This document shows positions 7,164 to 46,496 of a stretch of 46,627 nucleotides of DNA, piece after piece (within the stretch, counting starts at the first letter, position 1; every line of letters begins with the position of its first letter). The stretch spans positions 520-47,146 of the forward strand of contig PLXG01000087.1 in the NCBI GenBank assembly GCA_003153195.1. The letters run 5' to 3'. This DNA is from Myxococcales bacterium (lineage in GTDB: Bacteria; Myxococcota_A; Polyangia; Palsa-1104). The notes beneath the pieces were generated by a model. That model did no database searches. It was not told the origin of the DNA and saw nothing but the letters and a program-made list of their open reading frames with translations. The translations under genes and the position numbers were made by a program.

Positions 7164-7249
7164 GTCGGCGAAACTGACAGAACCGTAGTACTATGTAAAC
7201 AGGAAGAAAATTCTTTGAAGCTTCTGTCGTCTACCTGGACTGACCTTTC
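7164..7249. promoter_or_regulatory. Divergent promoter region of module A
   Basis: This 86 bp region separates the oppositely transcribed barrel and lipoprotein genes and must hold both promoters. It is AT-richer than its surroundings and contains tatgtaaa at 7192-7199. The same 8-mer occurs at 35883-35890, upstream of the module C barrel. No certain -35/-10 pair was identified. Confidence 0.4.
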
Positions 7250-9664
7250 ATGGAAGTATCCAAGATGAGAGCCTCAGTCCTCCGTGCATACGCCGCCCTG
7301 ATCCTATCTGCGCCAACGGTGGGCTGCGTACGAAATGATTCGCTCGGCCATCAAGCGGATATGTCCATCCTCGGTACGACCAGCGGTGACATGACGCCGG
7401 ATTACTCTGGTCTGGACGTCGAGCCGAGTGCGCTGCAGACCATTTCGGTGGCGGCCGGATCGACCCTGCCGACCGTGGGGCCGTACACCGCGACTCTACT
7501 GGGAACGTCGATTGCTGTGCGCTGGAGTGTCGATCGAGGCGACATCGGATCGATCGATATCGGCGAGACCGCGACCGCAAACTTTACGCCGCGCGGAACC
7601 ACCGGCGGATTGGTGACCATCCTCGCCGCTCTCGGCAGCACGACCATCAAACGGCAGGTAATGGTGAAGCTGACGACTGCACCGCAAAATGGATACGTGA
7701 GCAACACCGCCGAGCAAGCGCAAGTTCCGTCTAGCGCGGCCGCGCTCGCGCAAGGTGGCGGCGTGGGCGGCGTAGGCGGTGAAGGGCTTGGCGTCGCCGT
7801 CACCGATGGGAGCACCCTCACTGCGCTCGGAGCTCCTGCGGAAAACGGCAGCGCACAGCATCTGACGTTCCTCTATCCTTACGATAAGACCGTCTGGCCG
7901 CGCGGCATGCTCGCACCGCTTCTGATGTGGAAATGGGATAGCGGTGATGCGGACGCGATCAAGATCGATCTGTCGACCAGCAGTGGCTCGTTCACCTGGT
8001 CGGGAACCTTTGGACGTCCTGCGATCTTGCAAACGACGGGTGGAAGTTTTATCCGCCATCCCATTCCGCAAGATGTGTGGGACATGGCGACCAACTCCGC
8101 CGGTGGAACGACACCCGACGGCAAGCCCGACAAGCTCAGCCTCAAGCTTACCATCGCCAAGTCAGGTCAAGCCTACGGCCCAGTGGCAGAAACCTGGGCC
8201 GTGGCTCCTGCGCGCCTCACCGGCTCTGTCTACTACAGCGCCTATGGTTCGGGAACCGTGCGCAACGGTCTCGACAAAGATACCGCGGGCAACTGGGTGG
8301 GGGCGGCGATCCTCGGCATTCGATCGGGTGCCACCGCGCCCAAGGTCATTGTCGGACAAGATACTCCCGGGGCGGAGAGCGGATGCGTGGACTGTCACGT
8401 CGTGGCTGCGCGCGGCCGCTGGCTGATCGCACAACAGACCGGTGCGGAACAGGGCAGCGATCTGCAGAGCTTCGCCTATGATCTCCAAGCCGCGGATATC
8501 CAAGGATCTCGGCACGCACTGCCGCCAGACGGAACGTTTGCCTGGGCGGCAATGCTCAAGGATGCTTCGTACGTGCTCACCAACACCGTCGAGCCCGCCA
8601 ATACCGCCATTCTGACCGCCACCACCAGCTCGTTTTGGAGTTTTGGATCGAGCGCGGGTCCTCAGGCGGCAACGGCGAGCGGCCTGCCGAGCTCGATTTC
8701 GGCGGGCTACCCCATCTTCTCTCCCGACGATCGCTTTGTTGCCTACATCGATGCGACCGGAAACCCGAACGTCGGCGGTGGCCCGCTGACGGTGGGAAAT
8801 TTCGACGAGAGTTCGAGAACGTTCTCCAACCTACAAGCAATTCATTCCGCGCCGATGGGCGACAAGATCGGATATCCCGCGTTTCTTCCCGACGACAGCG
8901 GAATCGTGTTCGAGACCGGACTTCGTGCCAGCCAGTGCGATCCACAGATGGTCACCCGCTGCGGCGCTCGTGGTGAGTTGTGGTGGATCAACATGAGCGG
9001 TACGCCGACCGCGGTGACGCTCGATGCGCTCAACGGAAAGAGCGGTAACGCCGTCTACCTCCCGCTCGGGCCGAACAATCATGGCACCGGCGCGACGTCC
9101 GAATCTCCCACCAGCTCGTATAGTGAATCTGGCCTCGATGACACGACGCTCAACTATGAGCCCACGGTTCTGCCGATCGTGGCGGGCGGTTATGCTTGGG
9201 TGGTGTTTACCAGTCGTCGGCTCTACGGCAATCAAGCAACCGCGCTGCCGTGGAAAGGAAGTGATCCAACGCAGTACGACACCACCAGCTTTACTCAAGT
9301 ACCGACGAAAAAACTTTGGGTGGCCGCCATCAATCTCGGCGCTGCGCCGGGCTCCGATCCGAGCTCACCGGCTTTTTATCTGCCGGCGCAAGAGCTCATG
9401 GCGGGCAACTCGCGCGGCTACTGGGTTTTGGATCCGTGTCAGGGCGACGGCAATCGCTGCGACACGGGCGATCAGTGTTGCGGCGGATGTTGTCAGCCAA
9501 ATGGCACCGGCGGTGCGCTCATCTGTCAGAGTCCGCCACCCGACGGGCACTGCTCCTCGGTTGCGAACTGTTCCGGCGTTCAGGAACAATGTACGACGTC
9601 GGCGGACTGCTGTGATTCCTCGAATGTCTGTGCCGGTGGATTCTGTGCATACGTCATTGAGTAG
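7250..9664 (+). CDS. Module A: large CXXCH lipoprotein with Ig-like, propeller and 14-cysteine tail
   Basis: 804 aa. The signal peptide ends in a weak lipobox (APTVGC). Domains in order: the conserved box DYSGLDVEPSALQT (~residues 46-60); an Ig-like beta domain with RWSVDRGDIGSID and later TTIKRQVMVKL (~60-145); a Gly-rich linker; a beta-rich region; one c-type heme motif CVDCH at 379-383 followed by VAARGRWLIAQ; and TolB/PD40-type repeats (FSPDDRFVAYID, FLPDDSGIVFET). The tail from Cys730 to the C-terminus has 14 cysteines (DPC, QCC, GCC, DCC and others), knottin- or Dickkopf-like. It has close paralogues at 26100-28559 and 31065-33434. Probably surface-exposed and disulfide-stabilised. Function unknown; electron transfer, redox sensing or ligand binding are possible. 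It is followed 23 bp later by the sigma gene. Confidence 0.85.
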   Translation: MEVSKMRASVLRAYAALILSAPTVGCVRNDSLGHQADMSILGTTSGDMTPDYSGLDVEPSALQTISVAAGSTLPTVGPYTATLLGTSIAVRWSVDRGDIGSIDIGETATANFTPRGTTGGLVTILAALGSTTIKRQVMVKLTTAPQNGYVSNTAEQAQVPSSAAALAQGGGVGGVGGEGLGVAVTDGSTLTALGAPAENGSAQHLTFLYPYDKTVWPRGMLAPLLMWKWDSGDADAIKIDLSTSSGSFTWSGTFGRPAILQTTGGSFIRHPIPQDVWDMATNSAGGTTPDGKPDKLSLKLTIAKSGQAYGPVAETWAVAPARLTGSVYYSAYGSGTVRNGLDKDTAGNWVGAAILGIRSGATAPKVIVGQDTPGAESGCVDCHVVAARGRWLIAQQTGAEQGSDLQSFAYDLQAADIQGSRHALPPDGTFAWAAMLKDASYVLTNTVEPANTAILTATTSSFWSFGSSAGPQAATASGLPSSISAGYPIFSPDDRFVAYIDATGNPNVGGGPLTVGNFDESSRTFSNLQAIHSAPMGDKIGYPAFLPDDSGIVFETGLRASQCDPQMVTRCGARGELWWINMSGTPTAVTLDALNGKSGNAVYLPLGPNNHGTGATSESPTSSYSESGLDDTTLNYEPTVLPIVAGGYAWVVFTSRRLYGNQATALPWKGSDPTQYDTTSFTQVPTKKLWVAAINLGAAPGSDPSSPAFYLPAQELMAGNSRGYWVLDPCQGDGNRCDTGDQCCGGCCQPNGTGGALICQSPPPDGHCSSVANCSGVQEQCTTSADCCDSSNVCAGGFCAYVIE

Positions 9665-26099: not shown

Positions 26100-28559
26100 T
26101 CAATTGATCGTTTGAGCGCAGAAGCCGTTCACGCAGGTGTTCGACGGTTCGCAACAGTCGGCCGATGTCACACATTTCTCCTGTGCCTGCGAGCAGTTCG
26201 CCACAGCTGAGCAGTGTCCGTCGGGAGGCGGACTCTGACAGATGAGCGCACCGCCCGCGCCGTTTGGCTGACAACATCCGCCGCAGCACTGATCGCCGGT
26301 GTCGCAGGAATTGCCGTCCGATTGGCAGGGATCGAGCGCCCAAAATCCACGCGAATTTCCCGTCAGAATTTCCTGCGCCGGCAAGTAGAACGCCGGGAAG
26401 CTGGGGTCGGCGTCGGCCGATCCGCCCAAGCTCACCGCTGCCACCCACAACTTCTTGGTGGTGGCCTTCGATAGATCGGTGATGTCGTAGCGCTGCGGAT
26501 CGCTCTGCCACGGTGTGGCGGTGAGTTGGTTCCCGTACGCCCGACGACTGGTGAAGACGATCCAGGCGTAGCCGCCGGAGACGATCGGCAAAATGGTGGG
26601 CTCATAGTTGAGCGTCGTATCGTCCCAGCCGGCTTCGTTGTATTGCGTGCCCTCATATCCTCCGTCGCCGGTCCGCACGATCCCATGGTCGTTGCCGCTG
26701 ACCGGAAGGTATGAACTGGATCCATTTTTGCCGTTGAGCGCGTCGAGCTGAACCGCTGTCGGGCTCGCTCCACCGAGCTTGAGCCACGAAATCTCGCCGC
26801 GCGTGCCCTGTCGCGTCGTCATGACGATGTCTCGATTGCTGTCGCGCAGCTGAGTCTCGAAAACGATGCCGCTGTTGTCGGGCAGGAAAACGGGAAATCC
26901 GATTCGTTGTCCGATTCCTGGCGACAGCAGCGCCTGAAAGTTCGAGAACTGAGGGCTGGGAGTCGCGACGTAGTGGCCGACCATGAGCGGTCCCTGAAGA
27001 TTGTTAGTTTTTCCCGACACGTCGACGTAAGCGATCAAACTGTCGTCGGGAGAGAACGAAGGATGGGCCACACCCACGCCGCCCGGAAAGCCGGAATTGG
27101 TGATCATTTGGGGATTCAAAGCGAACTGCCAGAAGGCGCTCACCGCCGAGCCGGATCCAGCATTGGTCGGATCCGAGGGATTGTCCGAGTCGAGCTCCAC
27201 GGCGTTGCCGACGGCGTAAGAACCATCGCTCACCATTCCGGCCCAGGCGAATGTTCCGTCAGGTGTGAGTTGCTTTTCGGAAGACATCACGTTCGAGACC
27301 TTCAAATCGTATGCGTAGCTGTAGTTGGGATTGCCGCCACTGATCGATCCGTTCGATTTGTCGTACTCGGCCTGTACGATGAGTCGCTGCCCGCGCGAGG
27401 CCACCACGTGACAGGTGCGACATCCCTTGTCGCTGGTGGGGTGACCGTTCACGTCGAGATCACTGTCCGCACCGACGACCAGCGTAGGCTTGGTTTGGCC
27501 CGAGCGAATGCCGAGAACCGCTGCGCCGAAGTAATGTCCGGCGGTATCCGGTGTGACGAAATTCTTTACGAGCTGCGTGCCGTAGGAGTTGTAATAGACG
27601 GTGCCGGTCAGGCGGGCCGGTGCGACGGTCCAGGTTTCGGTGAGCGGTCCATAAGCTTGGCCGGCTCTCGCCAGGGTGAGCTTGACGGTGAGCTTGTCGA
27701 TTGTTCCGTCGGGAGTGGGACCGCCGGAAGAGTTGGTCGCCGCTTCCCACACATCCTGCGGGATTGGATGGCGAATGAACTTTCCGCTGGTCTGCGCCAA
27801 GATCGCGGGTCTGCCAAACGTGCCCGACCAAGTGAACGAGCCCGAGGTGGTCGACAGATCGATCTTGATGGCATCGGCGTCGCCGGTGTCCCAATTCCAC
27901 ATCAGGAGCGGGGCGATCATGCCGCGCGGCCAAGCGGTTTTGTCGTATGGATAGAGAAACGAAAGATGGAGTGAGGCGCCATCTCCGGTCGGACTTTCGA
28001 GGGCGGTCATCACGCTCGGATCGGAAACTGCGATGCCTAGTCCCTCGCCGCCGACACCGCCGACGCCACCGAGTCCGTCACCTTTGCTCAGTCCGTCGAC
28101 ATTGGCAGGAACCTGCGGCTGCTCGGATGCGACGCTGGTATCGACTCCGTTTTGCGGACCGGCGGTGATCTTGACCATCACTTGGCGTTTGATGGTGGCG
28201 CCGCCGATCGATGCGATCACGGTCACCAGGCCACCCACCTTTCCGTTGGCGGTGAATGTCGCCGATGAAACCTGGCCGGAATCGATGGTCCCGATGTCGC
28301 CGCGGTCGACCGTCCAGCGCACCAAGATGGGCGTGCCCAGCAGCGTGGCCATGAAGGCCTGCGATGTTTGCGCCGGATAGTTGAGGGTTTGCAGATCGCT
28401 CGGCTCGACGTCGAGACCGCTGTAGTCCATGGCCATGTCGCCAGTGTCGATCCCCACCTGCGCCATGTCCGGCAACGAATTCTGACGACCGGCCGAGAAG
28501 GGCTCGTGGCATCCGCTGAGCATCAACATCATCAGTACGCGTCCGACCCTTGTTCTCAT
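26100..28559 (-). CDS. Module B: large CXXCH lipoprotein with Ig-like, propeller and 14-cysteine tail
   Basis: 819 aa, ATG preceded by agggggac. The signal peptide MRTRVGRVLMMLMLSGC has lipobox LSGC. It has the same architecture as the module A protein: DYSGLDVEPSDLQT box; Ig-like domain (VRWTVDRGDIGTIDSG, TIKRQVMVKI); Gly-rich linker (GDGLGGVGGVGGEGLG); c-type heme motif CRTCH at 380-384 followed by VASRGQRLIVQ; PD40-type repeats (FSPDDSLIAYVD, FLPDNSGIVFET); and a tail of 14 cysteines spaced as in A, ending GFCAQTIN. Last gene of the barrel-sigma-partner-lipoprotein operon, 30 bp after the TPR partner. Convergent with the PIG-L gene. Confidence 0.85.
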   Translation of the reverse strand: MRTRVGRVLMMLMLSGCHEPFSAGRQNSLPDMAQVGIDTGDMAMDYSGLDVEPSDLQTLNYPAQTSQAFMATLLGTPILVRWTVDRGDIGTIDSGQVSSATFTANGKVGGLVTVIASIGGATIKRQVMVKITAGPQNGVDTSVASEQPQVPANVDGLSKGDGLGGVGGVGGEGLGIAVSDPSVMTALESPTGDGASLHLSFLYPYDKTAWPRGMIAPLLMWNWDTGDADAIKIDLSTTSGSFTWSGTFGRPAILAQTSGKFIRHPIPQDVWEAATNSSGGPTPDGTIDKLTVKLTLARAGQAYGPLTETWTVAPARLTGTVYYNSYGTQLVKNFVTPDTAGHYFGAAVLGIRSGQTKPTLVVGADSDLDVNGHPTSDKGCRTCHVVASRGQRLIVQAEYDKSNGSISGGNPNYSYAYDLKVSNVMSSEKQLTPDGTFAWAGMVSDGSYAVGNAVELDSDNPSDPTNAGSGSAVSAFWQFALNPQMITNSGFPGGVGVAHPSFSPDDSLIAYVDVSGKTNNLQGPLMVGHYVATPSPQFSNFQALLSPGIGQRIGFPVFLPDNSGIVFETQLRDSNRDIVMTTRQGTRGEISWLKLGGASPTAVQLDALNGKNGSSSYLPVSGNDHGIVRTGDGGYEGTQYNEAGWDDTTLNYEPTILPIVSGGYAWIVFTSRRAYGNQLTATPWQSDPQRYDITDLSKATTKKLWVAAVSLGGSADADPSFPAFYLPAQEILTGNSRGFWALDPCQSDGNSCDTGDQCCGGCCQPNGAGGALICQSPPPDGHCSAVANCSQAQEKCVTSADCCEPSNTCVNGFCAQTIN

Positions 28560-28589: not shown

Positions 28590-29315
28590 TTAGTGTGAAA
28601 ACTGTTGTTGTGCCTGTCGGGCGGTTTCGCGAAAACGTCCGTGCGGATAGCGATCGAGATATCGCTTGGCCAAGATCAGCGCTCTCTCATCGTGTTTCAC
28701 CACTGCCGTTTCGATCTGCAGCGAGAGCGCCTCTTCCAACAGCGCACCCTTCGGATAGCGACGCAGATACTCGGCGAGGAGTGCGTTCGAACGAACCGGA
28801 TCGTGGTCATGGCGCAGTGCTTTCATCGCCGCCAGCACACCCGCCATCTCCTCGGGATTGATCGCTTTGGCCTTTGCCGTCGGTTTGCTCGCATGGATCT
28901 TCGGGCGAATGGTCGGAGCAACTCCTGTCGACTGCTTTGCTTCGACCGGCGATTCGGCCTCGGCCTCGACCATGGCCCCGGCATGAGCGGCCACTTCATT
29001 GTCGGACAACTTGGGCGCGGGCGCGCTCGGCGCGGGTGTCGTCACCTTTGCGGCTGGCGCGACCGTCTTGGGCGAATGGAGGTATCGCCCAATCATCGCC
29101 GACGCAAATCCCACCGAGGCGATGATTCCGACCGTGGCGAATACCAGGCGGAGCCGAGCGCGAGGGACAGCCCGCGCGCCCTTCGAGTCGCTCGCCGAAA
29201 GAATCGCCTGCCGTCGTTCATTCGACGGACTCCGAGCCGGTGCTCGACGCAGAAGTTTGGCCAGCTCGTCCCCGGATTCTTCGCTCTTTGGCTCGTCATC
29301 GCGTAGCGGTCGCAT
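28590..29315 (-). CDS. Module B: one-TM TPR-like partner, putative anti-sigma factor
   Basis: 241 aa. A cytoplasmic N-terminus of ~55 residues is followed by a transmembrane helix at ~57-77 (LVFATVGIIASVGFASAMIG). A Pro/Ala-rich periplasmic linker follows (~80-150). The C-terminal ~85-residue TPR-like segment contains MKALRHDHDP, LLAEYLRRYPKGALLEEAL and YLDRYPHGRFR. It has no zinc-binding HXXXCXXC motif and no FecR domain. The ATG overlaps the sigma stop by one base (TGATG), the usual arrangement of a sigma factor and its regulator, so anti-sigma function is inferred from position and topology. The closest relative is the module C protein. Confidence 0.7.
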   Translation of the reverse strand: MRPLRDDEPKSEESGDELAKLLRRAPARSPSNERRQAILSASDSKGARAVPRARLRLVFATVGIIASVGFASAMIGRYLHSPKTVAPAAKVTTPAPSAPAPKLSDNEVAAHAGAMVEAEAESPVEAKQSTGVAPTIRPKIHASKPTAKAKAINPEEMAGVLAAMKALRHDHDPVRSNALLAEYLRRYPKGALLEEALSLQIETAVVKHDERALILAKRYLDRYPHGRFRETARQAQQQFSH

Positions 29316-29917
29316 CAGATCTTCCCCGCATTTCGAAATAGGAGGAGGCGCTCGGTCAACTCGGCCCGCGCGTGACGAATCCGCGACCAGACGGTGGCGA
29401 GCGGAATTTCTTCCAGCGCGGCGATCTCTTCGCCGGAATATCCTTCCAGCTCGAACAGCACGAAGGCCACGCGCTTTTTGGGATTCACGCCTTCGAGCAG
29501 ATGGCGCACCAATCGACTGGCGTCCTTTTCGTCGAGAAGCTCGTAGGGTGTGCGCCGCATGTCTTCGATCTGCTCGAGCTCGACATTGCGCGGTCGCAGA
29601 AAAAATTTACGAAACCAGGCGCGCCGGCGGTGATCGCTGGCGGTGTTCTGGGTGATCTTGTAAAGCCAGCCGAACAAATTCTGTCCGTCGAACTTGGGCA
29701 GATCGCGTCGGACCACCACGAAGATTTCTTGGGCCAGATCTTCTGCTTCCGACTCAGGAATGCCGAGCGCGAACAGCCAGCGCGTGACTTCGCGAAACCA
29801 TTTCTGGTATAGCGTAGAAAATTCTCGTTCGTCGGTATCTGCCACGTCGGCTCTGTCCACGGACTCAAAGGGGCGCGCCTCCGCGTCAATCCATTGAATC
29901 TCTGCTCCCGCTGGCAT
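29315..29917 (-). CDS. Module B: ECF-type RNA polymerase sigma factor
   Basis: 200 aa. Sigma-2 is at ~33-95 (LYQKWFREVTRWLFALGIP, AEDLAQEIFVVVRRDLPKF, FGWLYKITQNTASDHRRR). Sigma-4 is at ~135-190 (KRVAFVLFELEGYSGEEIAAL, PLATVWSRIRHARAEL). It is clearly paralogous to the module C factor (same APDHRRR-like helix and GYxxEEIAxLE) and more distant from module A. Its stop overlaps the start of the one-TM partner. It probably controls its own operon (inference). Confidence 0.9.
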   Translation of the reverse strand: MPAGAEIQWIDAEARPFESVDRADVADTDEREFSTLYQKWFREVTRWLFALGIPESEAEDLAQEIFVVVRRDLPKFDGQNLFGWLYKITQNTASDHRRRAWFRKFFLRPRNVELEQIEDMRRTPYELLDEKDASRLVRHLLEGVNPKKRVAFVLFELEGYSGEEIAALEEIPLATVWSRIRHARAELTERLLLFRNAGKI

Positions 29918-29951: not shown

Positions 29952-30896
29952 TCAAAAAATCTTGATGGCCATTCCGATTAAACCGCCCAGCCAGACGATG
30001 GGAGTTTTCCCAATGGTTTGATAGTCTTGAGCTGAGGTCTCGACGGTTATGGCGATCGGGCTGGGAAAAATCAGCGACTGAAAGGAGATAAACGGCGCGA
30101 TTCGGCCGAACCAGATCTTCGCCGAGAGCGCCAGCCGCAGCCCCCATTCGAGGCGCGTGCTGCTGTTTTGCGTGGCCAGCTCTTTGCCCGCCAAAAGGTC
30201 CACCATCATGGCCACGCCGGCATCTGCTTCGAGCTCGAGGCGGTGGAGGCGAAGCGCCCCGCGAACACCGAGATCCAACGGAACGCGGGTCAGTTCAACC
30301 TTGATGTCAGACAAATTGAAATCGACGGGCGAGCTGCCGATCACGCCGAGCGTGAGCCCAACTTGCGGAAGTCCGAAGTTGACGCGCACCGCGCCACCGC
30401 CGGAAAGGCTGCTCTTCGCGTTCGGAGCGCCATCGATGAATCCAGCGGCTTCGATTTCCAGTGAAAGGCGCCGGTCGGGGGGCGGGGCCGGAGGCTTGGG
30501 TGGAGGCGGCTTGGCTGCCGGCGGCGGTGCAGGCGAGGTGAAGACCGGCGGTTCGATCAAGAGCACGATGAAGACGGTGGCGGCACGTGCGCGATCTTCG
30601 CAGCTGCGCGTCTCGTCGACGAACTCGCGCGCATCGGCGCCGACGGCGATCTTGTAGCTCGGCCCCTCGTCGGAGACGCGAACCGCGATTCCATCTTCAG
30701 CCGCGCTGGTATCCGCCTGATGTTCCGAGAACGCTTGATTGAGCGCGAGCGTGAGCTGGGCGGGTGAAGGGCAGGCGGTCTCTTCGCCGAGAACGTGCAC
30801 GGACGGCGCGGCGTGAGCGAGTGCGCTCATCAGGCCGAAGACGGCGACGAGGGGAAGGCTTCCTCTCGAGCGAGATCGAATTGTTGATCGAATCAC
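29952..30896 (-). CDS. Module B: secreted two-cysteine domain plus outer-membrane beta-barrel-like protein
   Basis: 314 aa from GTG 30896, which overlaps the TGA of the upstream mini-ORF. The signal peptide is MIRSTIRSRSRGSLPLVAVF through ALAHA. The N-terminal domain has two cysteines (TACPSPAQL and RSCEDRARAATVFIVL). A proline-rich linker follows (~residues 118-142, with PPPPKPPAPPP). The barrel-like region ends in Phe (AIKIF), a typical outer-membrane insertion signal. First intact gene of module B; the sigma gene begins 34 bp downstream. Function unknown. Confidence 0.75.
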   Translation of the reverse strand: MIRSTIRSRSRGSLPLVAVFGLMSALAHAAPSVHVLGEETACPSPAQLTLALNQAFSEHQADTSAAEDGIAVRVSDEGPSYKIAVGADAREFVDETRSCEDRARAATVFIVLLIEPPVFTSPAPPPAAKPPPPKPPAPPPDRRLSLEIEAAGFIDGAPNAKSSLSGGGAVRVNFGLPQVGLTLGVIGSSPVDFNLSDIKVELTRVPLDLGVRGALRLHRLELEADAGVAMMVDLLAGKELATQNSSTRLEWGLRLALSAKIWFGRIAPFISFQSLIFPSPIAITVETSAQDYQTIGKTPIVWLGGLIGMAIKIF

Positions 30897-31009
30897 GTCC
30901 GACTAGTTGATGGTCTGTGCGCAGAAACCGTATGGTTCGCGGTCGGGTTACAGGCGGTCGCCAAGACTAGAAAAGTCGCCAGGCAGCGAAGGTGAGTCAT
31001 CTTTCCCAT
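30893..31009 (-). pseudogene. Fossil of a further module lipoprotein gene / 38-codon mini-lipoprotein ORF
   Basis: Reading leftward from ATG 31009 (or 31000) is a 38-codon ORF whose start is a lipoprotein signal peptide, MTHLRCLATFLVLATAC, followed by about 18 residues. Its TGA overlaps the module B barrel GTG. In another frame, the stretch around 30903-30929 encodes GFCAQTIN and a stop, exactly the C-terminus of the module B lipoprotein (codons differ). The simplest reading is an internally deleted copy: a signal-peptide 5' end joined out of frame to the 3' end of a module lipoprotein gene. It may still be translated and coupled to the barrel gene. Confidence 0.6.
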
Positions 31010-31064
31010 GACACCCCAAGTAATGGGCGGAATCAAGGTTCGCTGGGACGTACGCGGCCCGCTC

Positions 31065-33434
31065 TTAGTTGATGACCTGCGCGCAGAAGCCGTTCACGCA
31101 CTGGTTGGTCCCATCGCAGCAGTCGGCGGTGGTGACGCACTTCTCTTGCACGCCTGAACAACCGGAGACCGCAGAGCAATGTCCGTCGGGCGGAGGGCTT
31201 TGGCAGATGAGCGCACCGGCATTTCCATTTGGCTGACAGCAGCCTCCACAGCATTGGTCGCCGGTGTCGCACGAGTTGCCGTCGCCCTGACAGGGATCGA
31301 GCGCCCAAAATGCGCGGGAGTTGCCGGCGAGAAGCTCTTGCGCCGGCAAATAGAAGGCGGGGAAGCTCGGATCGGCGTCGGCCGATCCGCCCAGGCTGAT
31401 CGCGGCGACCCACAACTTTTTCGTCGTCGCGAGGTTGATGTCGGTGATGTCGTACTGACGCCCGTCGCTCTTCCATGGGAAGCTGGTGAGCATGTTGCCG
31501 TACATGCGGCGACTGGTGAAGACCATCCAGGCGTATCCACCGGTGAGCACCGGTGCAATCGTGCCTTCGTAGTTGAGGGTGGTGTCGTCGAAGGTATCGG
31601 CTTGCCCGTACTCTGGATCACCGGTCTGTCCGATTCCGTGGTTCATCGCAGCGATGGGTAGATAGGTCGCCGCTCCGCTCTTCCCGTTGACTGCGTCGAG
31701 CAAGACCGGCGCGGTGGCGCCGCTCTTGATCCACCAGAACTCGCTGCGCGCTCCGTTGGTCGTCGTCATCGTCGAGATGCCGCTGCCCGCGCGGACCTCT
31801 GAAGTGAAAATCACGCCGCTGTTGTCCGGCAGGAATGCCGGAAATCCGATCTTGGTTCCCGCCGGGGGCGTATAAACGGTCTGCGGCGTACCGAACATCT
31901 TGGCGCTCTTGTCGTACGACGCGACTACCAGTGGACCGGTCGGGTTGGTGGAGTGTCCGGTCGAATCGATGTAGGCGACGTATTTGTCATCCGGTGAGAA
32001 CGACGGATAGGCCGCCGATAGCGTCGACAACAGACCGTAGTTGGTCATCGGCTGAATCTGCGCGCCGAACTCCCAGAATCCGCTGGTCTGCCCGCTGATG
32101 CTTGGAGCCTGACTGGTCGGATTGGCGGTGTTTCCGAGCGCGTACGAGCCGTCGCTGACCATGCCGGCCCAAGCAAAAGTTCCATCGGGCTGCATCGGGA
32201 CCGCCGACGCTGGAACATTGGCCGCGCTGAGATCGTACGCGTAGCTGGAGTAGTAGTCGTTTCCCGATTGAGCGATCAGCCAGCGGCCCTTCGACGCGAC
32301 CGTATGGCAGACACGACAGCCGCCGTTGTTGCAGCTTCCGCCCGGCGTGCAACTGGCCGTACCGACGACGACCTTGGGAGCTGAGTCGCCCAAATGAATT
32401 CCCATGATCGCCGCGCCGAAGTAGTGGCCCATTGGATCGGGTGTGCTGAAGTTCAAGATCTGTTGCGTGCCGTAGGTGTTGTAGTAGACCGCGCCGGTGA
32501 GACGGGCACGTGCAACGCCCCATGTTTCGCTGATCGGTCCATAGGCCACGCCGGCTTTGGAGATGGTGAGCTTGACGGTCAGCTTGTCCTGCTTTCCGTC
32601 GGGCGTGAGGCCGCCGGCGGAATTGGTGGCCATGTCCCAAACGTCTTGCGGAATCGGATGACGAATGAAATTACCAGCGGTGCTTCCTAAAATGGTCGGC
32701 TTGCCGAAGGTGCCAGTCCAAGTAAACGAACCTGAGGTGGTCGACAGATCGATCTTGGCCGCATCGGCGTCGCCGGTGTCCCACTTCCACATGAGCAGTG
32801 GCGCCAGCATGCCGCGCGGCCAAACGGTTTTGTCGTACGGATAGAGGAAGCTCAAGTGTTGCGCGCTGCCGTCGGAGGTGGGGGTTGCGAGCGCCGAGAT
32901 GGTCGGTGCATCGGAGACCGCTACACCGAGGCCTTCGCCGCCGACTCCGCCGACACCACCGCCGGTCTTGATGGATGCGACCGTGGTGGGAACCTGGTTC
33001 ATCTCGCTTGGGTTGAATCCGTTTTGCGGCGTGGTGGTGAGCTTGACCATCACCTGACGCTTGATGGTGGTGCCGCCGATGGACCCGATTACGGTCACCA
33101 GACCGCCGGTGGATCCGCGCGGCGCGAAAGTCGCCGTCGAAGTTGTGCCGGTGTCGATGGTGCCCACGTCACCGCGATCGACCGACCAGCGCAGCAAGAT
33201 GGGCGTGCCGAGCAGCGTGGCCATGTACGCCACCGTCGGTGTGGCGCCTCCCGCTGCGACGGTGATCGTCTGTAGATCGGCGGGTTCGATGTCGAGCCCG
33301 GTGTAGTCCATCAGCATGTCGCCGGTGGCCATGTCCACAGCCGGCGCGTTGGTCATATCGTCGGCCATTCGACCAAGATTGACTTTGCATCCGACCAGTG
33401 AGACCAGCGCCAAATAGATCCAATTTCGCGTCAT
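31065..33434 (-). CDS. Module C: large CXXCH lipoprotein with Ig-like, propeller and 14-cysteine tail
   Basis: 789 aa from ATG 33434, chosen for the aaaggagc ribosome site just upstream and the signal peptide MTRNWIYLALVSLVGC (lipobox LVGC); a longer reading adds 16 residues. Architecture as in A and B: DYTGLDIEPADLQT box; Ig-like domain (LRWSVDRGDVGTIDTG, TIKRQVMVKL); Gly linker; c-type heme motif CRVCH starting at Cys373, followed by VASKGRWLIAQ; PD40-type repeats (FSPDDKYVAYID, FLPDNSGVIFTS); and 14 C-terminal cysteines ending GFCAQVIN. An extra TASCTPGGSCNNGG stretch just before the heme motif adds two cysteines not seen in A or B. Last gene of module C. Confidence 0.85.
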   Translation of the reverse strand: MTRNWIYLALVSLVGCKVNLGRMADDMTNAPAVDMATGDMLMDYTGLDIEPADLQTITVAAGGATPTVAYMATLLGTPILLRWSVDRGDVGTIDTGTTSTATFAPRGSTGGLVTVIGSIGGTTIKRQVMVKLTTTPQNGFNPSEMNQVPTTVASIKTGGGVGGVGGEGLGVAVSDAPTISALATPTSDGSAQHLSFLYPYDKTVWPRGMLAPLLMWKWDTGDADAAKIDLSTTSGSFTWTGTFGKPTILGSTAGNFIRHPIPQDVWDMATNSAGGLTPDGKQDKLTVKLTISKAGVAYGPISETWGVARARLTGAVYYNTYGTQQILNFSTPDPMGHYFGAAIMGIHLGDSAPKVVVGTASCTPGGSCNNGGCRVCHTVASKGRWLIAQSGNDYYSSYAYDLSAANVPASAVPMQPDGTFAWAGMVSDGSYALGNTANPTSQAPSISGQTSGFWEFGAQIQPMTNYGLLSTLSAAYPSFSPDDKYVAYIDSTGHSTNPTGPLVVASYDKSAKMFGTPQTVYTPPAGTKIGFPAFLPDNSGVIFTSEVRAGSGISTMTTTNGARSEFWWIKSGATAPVLLDAVNGKSGAATYLPIAAMNHGIGQTGDPEYGQADTFDDTTLNYEGTIAPVLTGGYAWMVFTSRRMYGNMLTSFPWKSDGRQYDITDINLATTKKLWVAAISLGGSADADPSFPAFYLPAQELLAGNSRAFWALDPCQGDGNSCDTGDQCCGGCCQPNGNAGALICQSPPPDGHCSAVSGCSGVQEKCVTTADCCDGTNQCVNGFCAQVIN

Positions 33435-33478
33435 ACCGAAAGCTCCTTTGTGAAACGTAGAGGGCGATCCCATGACGT

Positions 33479-34186
33479 TCAATTTCCAGCCCGCTTGATT
33501 GCGTTTTCAGCCACAGAGCGAAAACGTCCCGACGGAAATTTGCGTAAATATCGCGTGGCCAGCGCAGAGGTGTTCGGATCTTTGCGCAGTGCCGACGCTT
33601 CGATTCCATACGCCAGCGCTTCTTCGAACAGCGCGCCGCGCGGAAAGCGATGGAGATAGCGCTCAAACTGCTCGCCCGCCTTCAACGGATCGTGATCGAC
33701 GCGCAGCGACTTGAGGCCGGACATGAGCAACTTTGATTCCTCTGCCGTCGGACCTTTGGGTTTGGCAGCGTGTGGAGCTTTGTTCGGGCGCGTGGCAACT
33801 TGCGCTGCTTCAGAAGGCGCCGCCGGTTGCGGTATCGCCGGCTCCGCTGCGACTGGAGCCGCCGCAATCCTCGGTGCAGCGATCGGCGCGGCTGCGATCG
33901 GCGCGGTATTCGCAATCGTTGGTATGACTTGCGAAGAGCGATTCATGCGCTCGTGCACAATCGCCGCCGCGGCGATCGAGATCAGCGCGAACACCATCGC
34001 CGCCGCCATCACCGGACGCATCATGAAAGCGACGCGCGATCTCGGAGAAGGATTGAGGAGCAGGCTGGCGCGCACGCGCCGTTCGGCGATCCCGTTCGGA
34101 TCGAGCGGCTCTGCCGACGACAGAATCTTCGCGCAGTTCACTTCGATCGGATCTTGTGACGCCTTCTGATCTCTTAAGCGATTCAT
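33479..34186 (-). CDS. Module C: one-TM TPR-like partner, putative anti-sigma factor
   Basis: 235 aa. Cytoplasmic N-terminus ~52 residues; transmembrane helix ~56-78 (RPVMAAAMVFALISIAAAAI); Ala/Pro-rich periplasmic linker (APIAAPRIAAAPVAAEPA); C-terminal TPR-like segment LKSLRVDHDPLKAGEQFERY with FPRGALFEEALAYGIEA and YLRKFPSGRFR, colinear with the module B partner. No FecR domain and no zinc anti-sigma motif. The ATG overlaps the sigma stop (ATGA). The anti-sigma role is inferred from coupling and topology. Confidence 0.7.
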   Translation of the reverse strand: MNRLRDQKASQDPIEVNCAKILSSAEPLDPNGIAERRVRASLLLNPSPRSRVAFMMRPVMAAAMVFALISIAAAAIVHERMNRSSQVIPTIANTAPIAAAPIAAPRIAAAPVAAEPAIPQPAAPSEAAQVATRPNKAPHAAKPKGPTAEESKLLMSGLKSLRVDHDPLKAGEQFERYLHRFPRGALFEEALAYGIEASALRKDPNTSALATRYLRKFPSGRFRSVAENAIKRAGN

Positions 34187-35922: not shown

Positions 35923-37851
<1,929 letters not shown>

Positions 37852-38965: not shown

Positions 38966-41671
38966 TCAGCTCGGCGCGTTCTCTTGTTCTGCCAGTCGCA
39001 ACCCCGACGGCAGCGCTTCGCCGAACGCCAACTTCTCGTCGCGGGCTTCACGCGGCACCGGCTCCAGCACCGATCGCGCCATCCGTTCGCCGTCCTTGCT
39101 CTTGCGCAGTCGCTCAGCCAATTTGCGCCGAAGTGATTCGTCGAGATCGCGTGCGCGATCCCCCGACGCGCGTCCGATCTCTGCAGCCGCCAGCGCAAAG
39201 TTGTCGTTCGACCAATCGAGCGCCAAAATCTGTTCCAGCCAACGCTCCGCCTTCGAGCGCAGCACCACATCTTCCGTCGGACCGTAGAGCGGTACGCGCG
39301 CGGCCAAGCGTCCGAGCGCCCACATCGCCTGTTCCGGCGCTCGCTTTTTCTCCAGCTGTTGAATGAGCACGTCGCCGAGCTCGATCTTTTGCCGCGCGGT
39401 GAGTCGCTCCATGCTGGCCACACAGCGCCACATCTCTGCCGACTCTTGCGTGCTCGGAGTTTTTCGCTCGGCGCGTCGAGCGAAGGTCGGCAAAAAGTGT
39501 GGCGCGATGCGCTTGAACAGCTCTTCCTGCTGCGTCTTGGTCAGTCCGCCCGAAATCCGCCGCCACAGAATCCACCACTCGAGCCGGCAAGGATCATCTT
39601 TGTCATGAACCAGTCCGAGATTGAAGAGGCGCCAGGTCTCTTTCACCCGCCAATCGTCGAGCGGATAGCCGAAGCCCGGCCGCAGTGTGTAACCGACCAA
39701 ATTCATCCAGCGCGCTTCGTGCGCCGCCGTCTTGCCGCGTCCACCGCGCAGATCTTTGAGCGGCTCCCAAAGACCGCGCAGCACGGTCATCGACCAGGAA
39801 TCCTTGGGACCCAAAAGCGATTGCAACGCCTTCATGACGCCGGCGGGATCGCCCTCTCCTTTGCCGTAGAGACTGCGCAGAAGGACGATCGCTTCGTCCA
39901 ACTTTTCGACGTTCTGATGGGATGGGGCCGGCTCCTCGACGCGCGCGTCATCGCGTAGATCGAAGTTGAGCTTCCAGCGATCACTCTCGTTTCCCGTCGA
40001 GCGCGCCACACATTCGAGCTCGAGTGTTCCCACTTCGGTCAAGCGCGCGCGCACGTTTACCGAAAGGGTTGCGTCCTGCGAAGTGCGCGAAAAGCGAACT
40101 ACGGTATAGACCGGCGGCAGCTCGACCAGCACGCCTTCATCGACGGTGATGAGCGCGCCGGCCTGATCGCCCATCCGCTCCGACGAAGAAAAGAGTCGAA
40201 AACGAACCGGCCGATTGGTGAGCAGCTCGAGCGGATGTTGCGAGAGCTCGACGGAAGCGCCCTCTTCGAAACCGCGCGGCGTGATGCACATCGTGGTGAC
40301 TCCGCCCGGGTTCACTTGAGCGGTGTCGAGGCCGAGATAATAGGCGCGTGCTGCACCGCCGGCGATGCGCAGCGCAGCGCCATGACGCGCGAGCCCGTAG
40401 TAGGCGGCGCCGCGAGCCACCGCTAGATCGAGCGCGGCACTCTCGAGCACCTTCGGCGTGGCGCCCAACCAACTGGCGAGCACTTCGAGAATACGCGCGC
40501 GAATCGACGACGAATTGAGCACGCCGCCGTTCCAAAGTATCGCCGTTGGACGCGCTGCGTGCGAACGTAAAAATGCTGCCGCATGGCGGGTAATTCCCGG
40601 CTCGGCCGCGTACGGAAGGCCGAACTCCTGAAGGCCGGTGCGAGCTCGAGTGGGCGTGGCGCTCTCGTCGACACGCGGAAAAAATCCATCGAGCACCAGT
40701 GCTTCGACGTCACTGCGGGTGATCTCCGCGTGTAGCGCGCCGCCGATCAGCTTGGAGCTGCGTCCGGCCACGGTGATGCTCCAACTGTCACGCGTAGCGT
40801 CGCCGAGCAGTCGCTCTTTTCCGACGCGACAGGCCTGCACCAATGCCTGAAAACTGTGCGGATCGAGCTTGCGTCCCAGTCGCTCTTCAACCTGGCGAGC
40901 GATCGCCAGATCCATGTTGTCACCGCCGAGCAGCAGGTGATCGCCGACGGCCGTGCGATCAAAAACCGGGCGCCCTTGCGCATCGGGCTGTCGCACCGAG
41001 ATGAGCGAAAAATCGGTGGTGCCGCCGCCCACGTCGAAGACCAGCACCGTGTCGCCCGGCGAAAGATGGTTTTGCCAATAGTTCGCATGATCGGCGAGCC
41101 AGGAATAGAACGCCGCTTGCGGCTCTTCGAGGAGGATCGGCTTGAGACCGACTTCAGCCGCGGCCTTGAGCGTGAGCTCGCGCGCCACTTCGTCGAAAGA
41201 GGCCGGCACGCACAGCACCACCTCCTGTTCGGTCAGCGACTGCCCGGTTTTGTGATGCCAAGCTTCGGACAGGTGTCGCAGGTACGCGGCCGATGCTGCC
41301 ACCGGCGAGATTCGCTTGATCTCGGCACTCTCTGCTTCGCCCCACGGCAAAATGGCCGCCAGGCGATTGACGTGCGGATGGCAGAGCCACGACTTGGCTG
41401 ACGAGACCATGCGCGCCGGAACTTGCGAGCCTTGCTGTCGCGCGAATTCTCCCACCAGGTTACGACTGGGCGCGCCGAACGGCAGCGCGATCGCACTTTC
41501 GGGCAGCTCGTGCTCGCCGCTCAAATAGAGAAACGAAGGTAGCGTCGGCCGCTCACTCACTTCGCCGGCAGAGACCAGCTGCAAGATCGGATCGACTTCG
41601 ATCAATCGCGCGCCAAGCTCGGTGTGAGCCAGCGCGGAGTTGGTCGTGCCGAGGTCGATTCCGACGATCAT
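38966..41671 (-). CDS. Hsp70-like chaperone with long C-terminal extension (DUF3731-type)
   Basis: 901 aa. The ATPase domain begins at residue 1: MIVGIDLGTTNSALAH (phosphate 1), VLCVPASFDEVARELTLKAA, EEPQAAFYSWL, VLVFDVGGGTTDFSLISV (phosphate 2), GGDNMDLAIARQ and WNGGVLNSS. A short beta region follows. The last ~330 residues form an Arg/Leu-rich helical domain (e.g. FGYPLDDWRVKETWRLFN) that matches my recollection of DUF3731 in place of a normal DnaK lid. Third gene of the operon, 10 bp after the 587 aa Hsp70. The client is unknown; no J-protein or GrpE is adjacent. Confidence 0.85.
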   Translation of the reverse strand: MIVGIDLGTTNSALAHTELGARLIEVDPILQLVSAGEVSERPTLPSFLYLSGEHELPESAIALPFGAPSRNLVGEFARQQGSQVPARMVSSAKSWLCHPHVNRLAAILPWGEAESAEIKRISPVAASAAYLRHLSEAWHHKTGQSLTEQEVVLCVPASFDEVARELTLKAAAEVGLKPILLEEPQAAFYSWLADHANYWQNHLSPGDTVLVFDVGGGTTDFSLISVRQPDAQGRPVFDRTAVGDHLLLGGDNMDLAIARQVEERLGRKLDPHSFQALVQACRVGKERLLGDATRDSWSITVAGRSSKLIGGALHAEITRSDVEALVLDGFFPRVDESATPTRARTGLQEFGLPYAAEPGITRHAAAFLRSHAARPTAILWNGGVLNSSSIRARILEVLASWLGATPKVLESAALDLAVARGAAYYGLARHGAALRIAGGAARAYYLGLDTAQVNPGGVTTMCITPRGFEEGASVELSQHPLELLTNRPVRFRLFSSSERMGDQAGALITVDEGVLVELPPVYTVVRFSRTSQDATLSVNVRARLTEVGTLELECVARSTGNESDRWKLNFDLRDDARVEEPAPSHQNVEKLDEAIVLLRSLYGKGEGDPAGVMKALQSLLGPKDSWSMTVLRGLWEPLKDLRGGRGKTAAHEARWMNLVGYTLRPGFGYPLDDWRVKETWRLFNLGLVHDKDDPCRLEWWILWRRISGGLTKTQQEELFKRIAPHFLPTFARRAERKTPSTQESAEMWRCVASMERLTARQKIELGDVLIQQLEKKRAPEQAMWALGRLAARVPLYGPTEDVVLRSKAERWLEQILALDWSNDNFALAAAEIGRASGDRARDLDESLRRKLAERLRKSKDGERMARSVLEPVPREARDEKLAFGEALPSGLRLAEQENAPS

Positions 41672-41681
41672 CGCTTAACGC

Positions 41682-43445
41682 TCAGGATGCTTCGCGCACG
41701 TTGTATTCGAGCTTCCAGCGCCGCGCCGCGCCGCCCACTTCTTCGCACCAGAGCTCCAGCGTGCCCAGCTCGGTCACACGCGAATGAAGCTTCACCGGCA
41801 CCACATTTCCGGCGCCCGACTCCCCATTTTCGCCCAGCGTCGTGGCAACCGGCGCGAGCTCGGTCATTCGATCGTCGACTTCCTCCACCAGATTTCCCAC
41901 CCGATCATCTTTGCGCTGTGACGACGCAAGAAAGCGAAATTCGGCCGATTCTCCGACGACCAGACCAAACTCGCGATCGGCGACTTCGCTTTCCGATCCC
42001 TCTTCCATTCCGAACGGAGCGACGCAAAGCGCCTTGAGCGGTGGCGTCATTCCTGGAATAGCCGGCATCGACGATTCGATTCCGACATAATACGCGCGGG
42101 CGGTGCCACCACGAATTCTGACGCCGCGCCCGCGACGAACCAATCCGTAGTAGGCGGCGCCTTGCGCAACCGCGAGATCGAAATCGGTACCGGACAAAAG
42201 TTTGAGCGGCTGGCCGTTCCAACTGCTGAGTGTGTCGGTGACGCGTTTGCGCAGCGGCTCGCCTTTCATGACGCCGCCGTTGAACAAGACCGCGGTCGGC
42301 TGACGATGCGCGCCCACGAACTGCGCCAAGTGTCGCGTAATACCGGCGTCGCTGGCGAACGGAAGGCCGAGCTCGCGAAATCCAACCCGCGCCGCTTTGG
42401 CTGGTCGCGCAGCGCGATCACAGATGGGAAAAAATCCGTCGACCAAGATCGCTTCCAGCTCGCTCTTCTTGAGCTCGGTCTTGATCGATCCGCCGATGAC
42501 TTTTGAGCCGCGGCCGAGGATGACCACCGGCGCCACTTCGAGATTTTTCTCCAGCAGATCTTCTTTGGCCTGGCGGCACGAATGAACTAGCGCGGCGAAT
42601 TGCCAGTTGTCGAGCTTCGACCCCTGACTTTCGACGCGAACGCGAATGTTGTGCGCCAGCGCCAAGTCCATGTTGTCGCCGCCGAGCAGAATGTGATCGC
42701 CGACCGCCACGCGCTCGAGCTGCAGATTGCCTTCCGCTTCACTCACCGCGATGAGAGAGAAGTCGGTGGTGCCGCCGCCCACGTCGCACACCAACACTAC
42801 ATCTCCGACGGAGAGATCGCGTCGCCAACCCTCTGCCGAACGACCGAGCCAAGCGTAAAACGCGGCTTGCGGCTCTTCGAGCAATGTCACGTGCATCAGT
42901 CCGGCCAGCTGCGCTGCCCGCACCGTGAGCTCGCGCGCCACTGCATCGAACGACGCCGGCACGGTGAGAAACACCTCTTGATCGGCTAGCTTGGCGCCGA
43001 ATTTGTCGAAGGCGAAATCCCATGCGTTGCGAATGTGCTCGAGATAGCGCGCCGAGGCTTGCTCGGGCGAAATCTTCTGCACTTCATCCGGTGCTTGCCA
43101 CGGCAAGATTGGAGCTGATCGATCGACACCCGAATGGCACAGCCAACTCTTGGCGGAACTGACCAGCCGCATCGGCACTTTCCAACCGTGATCGCGTGCG
43201 AAGGTTCCGGCAAAAGATCGCTGAGTCTGATTCCACGGTAACGACAGCGCCAGCGCAGAAAATTCGGTTTCCGACGGCAAATACAAAAACGAAGGGAGGG
43301 TGGAGCGCGCCTCGGTGGTGCTGGCCGCGATCAGCTGCGGAATCTGAAACAGTTGAATCCGCGCGGACGGATCTTGTGTGTCGACATAGGCCACCGCCGA
43401 GTTGGTGGTGCCGAGATCGATCCCGACGACGAATTGACTGCTCAT
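41682..43445 (-). CDS. Hsp70-like protein, short form
   Basis: 587 aa from ATG 43445, which overlaps the DUF2760 stop (ATGA); a longer reading adds 26 unlikely residues. Hsp70 ATPase motifs: FVVGIDLGTTNSAVAYVD, FLTVPASFDAVARELTVRAA, EEPQAAFYAWLG, VLVCDVGGGTTDFSLIAV, GGDNMDLALAHN and FNGGVMKGE. After the nucleotide-binding domain there is only ~170 residues of beta-rich sequence and no alpha-helical lid. It parallels the downstream 901 aa protein domain by domain, so the two probably arose by duplication and may act as a pair. Confidence 0.87.
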   Translation of the reverse strand: MSSQFVVGIDLGTTNSAVAYVDTQDPSARIQLFQIPQLIAASTTEARSTLPSFLYLPSETEFSALALSLPWNQTQRSFAGTFARDHGWKVPMRLVSSAKSWLCHSGVDRSAPILPWQAPDEVQKISPEQASARYLEHIRNAWDFAFDKFGAKLADQEVFLTVPASFDAVARELTVRAAQLAGLMHVTLLEEPQAAFYAWLGRSAEGWRRDLSVGDVVLVCDVGGGTTDFSLIAVSEAEGNLQLERVAVGDHILLGGDNMDLALAHNIRVRVESQGSKLDNWQFAALVHSCRQAKEDLLEKNLEVAPVVILGRGSKVIGGSIKTELKKSELEAILVDGFFPICDRAARPAKAARVGFRELGLPFASDAGITRHLAQFVGAHRQPTAVLFNGGVMKGEPLRKRVTDTLSSWNGQPLKLLSGTDFDLAVAQGAAYYGLVRRGRGVRIRGGTARAYYVGIESSMPAIPGMTPPLKALCVAPFGMEEGSESEVADREFGLVVGESAEFRFLASSQRKDDRVGNLVEEVDDRMTELAPVATTLGENGESGAGNVVPVKLHSRVTELGTLELWCEEVGGAARRWKLEYNVREAS

Positions 43446-44002
43446 AGCTCGACTTCCGCCGGCGTCACCACCATTGGATCGGTCGCGGTCGAAACCGGAA
43501 GCGAGACCTTGGTGGTGCGCCATCCGTGATGGCGAAGTGTTCCAGAAAATGGCGGTTCGCCGACCACGTTACCAACCAATCGAATACGCGCCGGATCGAA
43601 ACCGGCGTCGACGCGCACGCGCGCATTTTCCGCGTCTTTGAGAACGGGCTCGAGCGGTAGGTGCTCCGCGAGCGCGCGCTTGCAGCCGCGATGAATGTCG
43701 CGCACTGCCGCGCCGATTTGCGCGTCGGCATAGCCGTCGATCTCTTCCTGCAAGAAGTCGAGCAGCCGGCCCTCGCGCTGAAAGAGCGCCAGAAGTTGCA
43801 CTGCGCCCCCGGTCGAATCCTTCGTCGGCTCTTTGACGGTCATCGGTGCGGGCGCCGCCATCGGCTGCGTCTTGGCGATCTCGATCGGCACGGCGGGCGC
43901 CGTGGGCGGCTCGGCCGCGGGCAAAAGTCGCAGCGCATCGGCCGGTAGTCGACCGGCAAAAAGAACCGAAAAGAAGCAGCGAAGGGCGAGGAAAAATCGC
44001 AT
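43442..44002 (-). CDS. DUF2760 domain protein
   Basis: 186 aa from ATG 44002, at the hydrophobic N-terminus MRFFLALRCFFSVLFAG; the longer reading adds 12 residues. An Ala/Pro-rich linker (~residues 25-60) precedes the DUF2760 core: AVQLLALFQREGRLLDFLQE, YADAQIGAAVRDIHRGCKRA, RLVGNVVGEPPFSGTLRHHG and the C-terminal PAEVEL. Molecular function is undescribed to my knowledge. First gene of a coupled operon with two Hsp70-like genes, an association I recall from other bacteria, suggesting it works with them. The N-terminus could be a membrane anchor. Confidence 0.85.
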   Translation of the reverse strand: MRFFLALRCFFSVLFAGRLPADALRLLPAAEPPTAPAVPIEIAKTQPMAAPAPMTVKEPTKDSTGGAVQLLALFQREGRLLDFLQEEIDGYADAQIGAAVRDIHRGCKRALAEHLPLEPVLKDAENARVRVDAGFDPARIRLVGNVVGEPPFSGTLRHHGWRTTKVSLPVSTATDPMVVTPAEVEL

Positions 44003-45134: not shown

Positions 45135-46496
45135 CTAGACCCGAACGGCGGCGACGGTGATCTCTTCGCGATCGTGATAGAGCTGCCGCGTTCTCAGGCT
45201 CTTCCATCCGCCCAGCTCGAGAATTTCCCGGACGCGAAATAGATTCTCCGCTTTTTTTCGCATCGGCATCTTGATGTTGGCAATGAGCATGCGCGCCCAT
45301 CGGTTGCGCGCCCATTTGCCGAGCAGCGCGGCTGCCTCGAGCGGACGAAACGCCATGTCGCAGAACAGCCAATCTACCGGATCGTCCTCGGGCGGCTCGA
45401 AACGAAATGCATCGCCGCGCACATGCTCGAGACCTTTTCGATTGCGCAGATCGGGCGCCAAGTCGCCGGGGTCGATGGCGATTACGCGCGCACGTTTTTG
45501 TAGTAGGACCCAAGTCCAGCCGCCGGGCGCCGCGCCGAGATCGACGCACAATTCGTTCGGCTCGGGCTCGCGATTGAGCCAAACAAACGCTTCGAGCAAT
45601 TTCATTGCCGCGCGCGACGGTGCAGCGTCGGGAAAGTGAACGCGCAATCGTCCGCCGGGTGCCAGGCTCGGCGCATCTCGCGCCGGAATCACGCCGAGCG
45701 CGCCACGATCTTTCGCGAACAGACAGAGTTGAGCGTAGAAACCGTTTTCGTCGAGCGCGGCGCGTGCGGTCGGAACGCGAAGCGCCGCCAGATCGGGACG
45801 TGCGTAGGAGAGCTGCGCAAACAGCGCTTCTTCCAGCTTGGCAGCCTGCGCCGAAAAGCGATTGGTATCGTCGTGGTCGGGTACCCAAACATCGAGCGCC
45901 CAAGGACGCGGCCCGCGCGCGAGGTGCGTGTTCAATTGTTTGACCAGGGCGTTGGCGGCGTGACCTGCGTCGTGCACCAGTGCGCCGACTTTGAATCCTT
46001 GGCGTGCAAAGGTGAGATCGGGCGAACCCTCGTCGGCAGCGACCAACGAAGGACCCGCGACGCGCGCGATCACCGGCTTTTTAGCGAACGCGAGCTCTTC
46101 GATCAGATCGATCTCCGCTTCTGCGCGCGTGGTCCAGAGCCACTCGCCGGGCCGAACTTCCGACGGAGCTTGCACTTCGACTGCCGGGAAAGCGCGACGT
46201 GGTGGAGTGACGATCGGCGTGTGCTGCGGACGCACGCGCGATTTTTTGCGATCAAATTGCTGCGGACCTTTGCGATCGAATTGCTGTGGGCCTTTGCGAT
46301 TAAAAGGATTCGGACCTTTGAACGCCTTTGGTTCTGAAAAAGGCTTGGGGCCTTTGAACGCCTTCGGTCCTGCAAAAGACTTGGGACCCTTGAAGGTCTT
46401 TGGCGGACCCTTGCGATCGCCCGGCCGGCCGCCCCGATTTCCTTCACGGCGATCGGCGGTGCGTGGACCTTTGCTGTTTCGCTCCCGCCTGCTCAT
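45135..46496 (-). CDS. RlmM-like (FtsJ-fold) rRNA 2'-O-methyltransferase with repetitive N-terminus
   Basis: 453 aa. The C-terminal ~160 residues are a Rossmann methyltransferase: SAM motif VDLGAAPGGWTWVL (Asp319-Gly), a second acidic strand IAIDPGDLAPDL, DWLFCDMAFRP, and the catalytic Lys409 in ANIKMPM, as in FtsJ and RlmM 2'-O-methyltransferases. RlmM modifies C2498 of 23S rRNA; the middle THUMP-like region (~140-290) supports that group over RlmE. The first ~100 residues are basic low-complexity repeats (GPKxFKGPKxF and KGPQQFDR twice), absent from typical family members as I know them. Divergent from the next gene across 39 bp. Confidence 0.82.
   Translation of the reverse strand: MSRRERNSKGPRTADRREGNRGGRPGDRKGPPKTFKGPKSFAGPKAFKGPKPFSEPKAFKGPNPFNRKGPQQFDRKGPQQFDRKKSRVRPQHTPIVTPPRRAFPAVEVQAPSEVRPGEWLWTTRAEAEIDLIEELAFAKKPVIARVAGPSLVAADEGSPDLTFARQGFKVGALVHDAGHAANALVKQLNTHLARGPRPWALDVWVPDHDDTNRFSAQAAKLEEALFAQLSYARPDLAALRVPTARAALDENGFYAQLCLFAKDRGALGVIPARDAPSLAPGGRLRVHFPDAAPSRAAMKLLEAFVWLNREPEPNELCVDLGAAPGGWTWVLLQKRARVIAIDPGDLAPDLRNRKGLEHVRGDAFRFEPPEDDPVDWLFCDMAFRPLEAAALLGKWARNRWARMLIANIKMPMRKKAENLFRVREILELGGWKSLRTRQLYHDREEITVAAVRV

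Follow-up and report, generated by a model that had tools for sequence, protein, structure and literature searches.

Pseudogenes and gene remnants that arise by internal deletion are a known general kind of bacterial sequence. A second described arrangement is the pair of genes joined by termination-reinitiation, which, according to PMC10666635, favours 4-nt overlaps between an upstream stop and a downstream start, and for which the last 15 nt of the upstream gene can suffice. For the regulatory clusters that surround the stub described below, our literature search returned no title describing them.

The locus lies in the window, by which we mean the whole stretch of DNA that was analysed (46,627 nt). 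It comes from contig C18 of the draft genome of a myxobacterial relative, which comprises 5.56 Mb in 511 contigs and is 71.7% complete. Two four-gene clusters, modules C and B, stand here on the minus strand with identical gene order: a barrel-like protein, an ECF sigma factor, an anti-sigma-like protein and a lipoprotein, the cargo. The stub lies between the two modules, within the 172 nt that separate the stop of the module C lipoprotein gene (lipC) from the end of a small open reading frame (ORF). In the order in which they are read on the minus strand, the features are:

From 35929, minus strand: module C barrel-like predicted protein.
34758-34183, minus strand: module C ECF sigma factor.
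34186-33479, minus strand: module C anti-sigma-like protein.
31065..33482, minus strand: lipoprotein C (lipC), the intact module C cargo, ending NGFCAQVIN; likely start ATG 33434.
30932..31064, minus strand: spacer from the lipC stop to the tail remnant, 133 nt, with no detectable DNA relation to 17 candidate sources.
30893..31009, minus strand: 38-codon ORF with a lipoprotein signal peptide and lipobox LATA-C, from ATG 31009 to TGA 30893.
30903..30931, minus strand: remnant of a lipoprotein 3' end, (N)GFCAQTIN-stop, 29 nt, in the frame of barrel B.
29952..30896, minus strand: module B barrel (putatively barrel-like, predicted to be secreted), with its GTG start just 3' of the remnant.
29315..29917, minus strand: module B ECF sigma factor.
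28590..29315, minus strand: module B putative anti-sigma protein, so named for its position and a hydrophobic stretch.
26100..28559, minus strand: lipoprotein B (lipB), the intact module B cargo, ending NGFCAQTIN.

Neither the barrel-like nor the anti-sigma-like proteins had a Pfam match, and both names are putative. A structure model of barrel B built from two sequences reached a mean pLDDT of 45.7, too poor to confirm a barrel. The model of lipoprotein C (pLDDT 80.7) gave loose matches to beta-propeller-type PDB entries, for example TolB, which are uninformative on the stub. Both lipC and lipB encode beta-propeller-like proteins with Cys-rich tails and no Pfam match, and each has one CxxCH motif, which we take to be a possible haem c site. 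Most of the named records with the same lipoprotein family belong to Myxococcota. Three further features of the window were seen in passing. The longest ORF for barrel C overlaps a divergent gene that starts at 35923 (window 35923-35929), and the actual start codon of barrel C probably lies downstream of the one that opens this ORF. At 38966-43523, on the minus strand, two adjacent related genes, presumably Hsp70-like, share repeats of 49-85 nt with 73-82% identity. Three tandem 36-nt repeats stand at 46302-46409, near the start of the minus-strand ORF 45135-46496.

A preliminary description of this DNA had reported the small signal-peptide ORF and, out of frame behind it, a GFCAQTIN-stop matching the protein end of lipB in different codons, just upstream of the module B barrel; the sequence bears out each of these points. 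The 38-codon ORF translates as MGKMTHLRCLATFLVLATAC-NPTANHTVSAHRPSTSRT. The tail, GGT TTC TGC GCA CAG ACC ATC AAC TAG (30929-30903, minus strand), begins 80 nt after ATG 31009, out of frame with the small ORF, and runs in the same direction as the barrel gene, with its stop 6 nt before the barrel B GTG. Its eight residues are identical to those that end lipB, with five of the eight codons changed, all synonymously, and a different stop codon; the lipC end differs from it by one residue (GFCAQVIN). Over the 29 nt of DNA, the tail is identical to lipC at 24 positions and to lipB at 22, the same number at which lipB and lipC agree with each other (22/29), and in 118 kb of own-genome DNA, searched on both strands, no unrelated site exceeded 21/29.

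Whereas 0 of 5000 dinucleotide shuffles equalled the local alignment of the spacer with the lipC tail, and 0 of 5000 that with the lipB tail, the scores of the other lipoprotein tails were reached by shuffles (lipA in 3455 of 5000, C301 in 11, C161 in 603 and C397 in 1877), so the likeness is to B and C. Across the whole 5.56-Mb genome, a degenerate tail pattern with up to two mismatches matched four places, namely the lipB, lipC and C161 lipoprotein tails and the stub site, and the reversed control pattern matched none. A 47-residue lipB tail query found 12 places in the genome, ten of them known lipoprotein tails and the remaining two at E 0.65 and 5.1. The tail belongs to the lipB/lipC lipoprotein family. 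As a separate observation, a family member on C397 of the same genome (L006 88-2430) is interrupted by a single in-frame TAG, which separates the Cys-rich tail from the rest, and is possibly a second decaying copy.

Lipobox ORFs were called by a G+LPP-like rule with an ATG start. None of 5000 shuffles of the spacer contained one, and 23 of 3818 real 172-nt segments of the own genome did, mostly in true genes. Six own-genome loci, taken on both strands, held ten distinct ATG lipobox ORFs, and only the 38-codon ORF and two others (20 and 21 codons) were shorter than 100 codons. The start-site duplex energy of the small ORF is -5.3 at ATG 31009 and -6.0 at ATG 31000, compared with -6.2 to -10.9 for the eight lipoprotein starts measured (ATG 33434 being used for lipC, whose longer TTG start scores -4.5); the random background has its median at -2.1 and its 5% quantile at -6.2. 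Because a lipobox ORF is here far above chance expectation and its start energies come near those of lipoprotein starts, a genuine gene start is favoured. The own genome yielded no significant second copy of the small ORF protein (next best E 0.49). No sigma-70 promoter was found at the stub, the only Rfam match in a search for structured RNA there, at 17.7 bits and E 0.99, fell below the gathering score of 55, and a terminator search gave one weak 5-pair hairpin, which lies within the signal-peptide part.

Comparison of the signal-peptide part with known lipoprotein 5' ends and flanks detected no DNA homology in any of the 17 candidate stretches. As a control, the 75-nt signal-peptide parts of intact family members were compared, and these were also unalignable in six of six pairs; the missing 5' homology is therefore uninformative rather than negative. 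When 133 nt were compared, one of the six family pairs stood out: just 5 of 500 shuffles scored as well as lipC-lipB. A lipoprotein start on C477 matches the signal-peptide part, but for just 17 nt (a match equalled in 31 of 2000 shuffles), and the protein that begins there shows no GFCAQTIN-type tail in the sequence in view. Nor does the spacer resemble the sequence downstream of lipB, an alignment that 97 of 500 shuffles matched in score. The junction has no long repeat other than the tail, and the surrounding 20-kb piece contains no N. The gap between start and tail is too short for the interior of a gene of about 800 codons.

A lipoprotein-type start and a lipoprotein-type tail both occur here, in the fitting order, orientation and place. 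On two other contigs of the same genome, intact lipoprotein genes that belong to other families stand directly upstream of a module barrel, with the lipoprotein stop 2 nt before the GTG on C364 and 14 nt before the barrel on C202. This arrangement was seen for 2 of the 22 barrels examined, several of which are cut by contig ends. Given the position of the tail and these two precedents, a lost lipoprotein gene next to barrel B is the best reading, and we consider it probable, somewhat above an even chance, that the stub represents the two ends of a third lipB/lipC-family lipoprotein gene that formerly stood directly upstream of barrel B and whose interior has been deleted.

We infer that start and tail come from one gene and that deletion removed its middle, the loss amounting to about 2.3 kb on the assumption of a full-length family member. 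Such a third gene would have been in the same transcription unit as the module B barrel and directly 5' of it. What survives of this gene would be the ribosome-binding region, start codon and signal peptide (31009-30950) and the last nine codons, including the stop (30929-30903). The middle would have been removed by one or more deletions with a net length of 1 mod 3, leaving the ends out of frame, and the stub would now make at most a 38-residue vestigial lipoprotein, probably with no retained function. That a short insertion between start and tail shifted the frame was also considered, but this idea was dropped, since one 1 mod 3 deletion explains the same. The tail has only synonymous changes relative to lipB, as would be the case if the copy had remained under protein-level selection after parting from lipB.

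The preliminary description had gone further and had taken the remnant for the fossil of a whole module in an array of module copies. The lipoprotein-family remnant itself stands, but the 172-nt spacer holds no convincing remains of the other three genes (barrel, sigma and anti-sigma), and a whole-module fossil is unsupported. When 100 module proteins were compared with the spacer by tblastn, lipoprotein tails matched at E 0.64 to 3.1; the matches to other proteins were interior, 38-48% identical, in mixed frames and at E 0.73 or worse, and were taken as noise. This search has little power for very short remains, with the true tail itself reaching only E 0.64.

Trees of 19 sigma and 19 barrel proteins speak against a simple tandem array of module copies. 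Module B groups with the modules on C319 and C161 (sigma trio 98/97; barrels of B and C319 98/89), and module C groups elsewhere, with modest support. In constraint tests chosen after the trees had been seen, placing B and C together was rejected for the barrels (AU p 0.028), which are thus not sisters, and was not rejected for the sigma factors (p 0.064). The lipoproteins of B and C, in contrast, pair as sisters with support of 94/89, which falls slightly short of a firm branch. Sister lipoproteins beside non-sister barrels would fit independent duplication of lipoprotein genes at this locus. Cargo and regulator genes appear to have had different histories, and where that is so, neighbouring lipoprotein copies need not mean module copies. 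The loss of a lipoprotein gene, and not of a module, is indicated. A simple tandem duplication of module C into B was considered as well, and is disfavoured by the trees and the spacer comparison.

Alternatively, the tail may be the only piece of a lipoprotein gene that was ever present at this site. Its last 29 nt could have arrived together with module B, as the margin of a duplicated or translocated segment, the ORF in front of them being unrelated, either by chance or as a separate small gene. A 3' fragment of this sort does occur on contig C160 of G002, a genome of the same family and another genus, where the last ~90 nt of an anti-sigma-like gene were tandemly duplicated together with the cargo lipoprotein gene, leaving a 3' anti-sigma-like fragment before the second lipoprotein. 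The grouping of the module B barrel and sigma factor with those of C319 and C161, not with module C, also means that module B may have been moved. Yet on such an origin a 133-nt spacer must also hold an unrelated ATG lipobox ORF that has a fair ribosome-binding region, which is rare by chance, and the spacer lacks the homology to the sequence downstream of lipB that a simple tandem duplication predicts, although decay could have erased it and this second point is weak evidence. On balance we regard a tail-only origin as unlikely. The G002 duplication lies on the reverse strand of L163, at about 7015-7640, and its second lipoprotein has ~268 codons and its first ~109.

The 38-codon ORF could instead have been kept by selection, as a small lipoprotein or as a leader that feeds barrel B through termination-reinitiation. 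Its TGA and the barrel B GTG share the classic 4-nt overlap (GTGA), and barrel B has no Shine-Dalgarno match (duplex +1.0) where the start of the small ORF is fair. However, with an A at the start of barrel codon 2, the GTGA overlap follows for whatever ORF is read in that frame, and weak starts are common among barrels without such an ORF (C267 +1.0, C202 -1.1, C161 -1.4). The GC3 of the ORF, 0.61, is below that of lipC, lipB and barB (0.72-0.77), and conservation was seen in no relative. We therefore find selective retention rather improbable. It is more doubtful still that the stub of a dead gene has been kept as a translational coupler, its out-of-frame ORF ending on the barrel B start and so keeping barrel B translated. 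Chance similarity or a metagenome assembly artefact is very improbable, for although the genome is a 511-contig draft at 71.7% completeness, the genome-wide specificity of the tail, the alignment and lipobox shuffles, the lack of N and the lack of a long junction repeat all stand against it, and chance similarity we reject.

Of the 14 genomes of the order, 8 have barrel homologues, and the own genome has 15 matches. The order barrel, sigma, anti-sigma-like was found in 18 clusters from four genomes (11 in G000, three each in G002 and G008, and one in G004). The 11 own-genome clusters are on C18 (two), C161, C206, C319, C143, C202, C267, C500, C154 and C326; they are often followed by lipoproteins of different families, and we read this side observation as a multiplied regulatory cluster with exchangeable cargo. 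The lipoprotein family is more widespread: within the class, 67 of 317 genomes have a match with an E-value no higher than 1e-100, with three candidates scored per genome. None of 39 family loci from a wider set of contigs had a barrel match in up to 10 kb of flank. No related genome with the module C / module B junction was found among the searched loci. As the remnant of a lost lipoprotein gene, the stub is by itself ordinary gene decay. In its setting, it suggests that cargo lipoprotein genes come and go independently of the sigma, anti-sigma-like and barrel genes, and such independent turnover would help to account for why so many clusters of this lineage differ in their cargo.

How does the stub compare with known systems? 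With the termination-reinitiation pairs of PMC10666635 it shares a 4-nt overlap, the GTGA of the small ORF and barrel B, but no conservation of the stub ORF was seen and its translation is hypothetical. The fragment on C160 of G002 comes from the same kind of cluster and is likewise a short 3' end of an upstream gene placed before a downstream gene; there, the duplicated DNA still aligns over ~250 nt, whereas the stub has no flanking homology and its tail is preceded by a gene start. Compared with pseudogenes formed by internal deletion, the stub keeps only about 20 codons of the start and 9 of the end (29 nt at the 3' end), and the unity of the two ends is something we deduce. With such pseudogenes it shares recognisable ends, a broken frame and a retained position in the operon.
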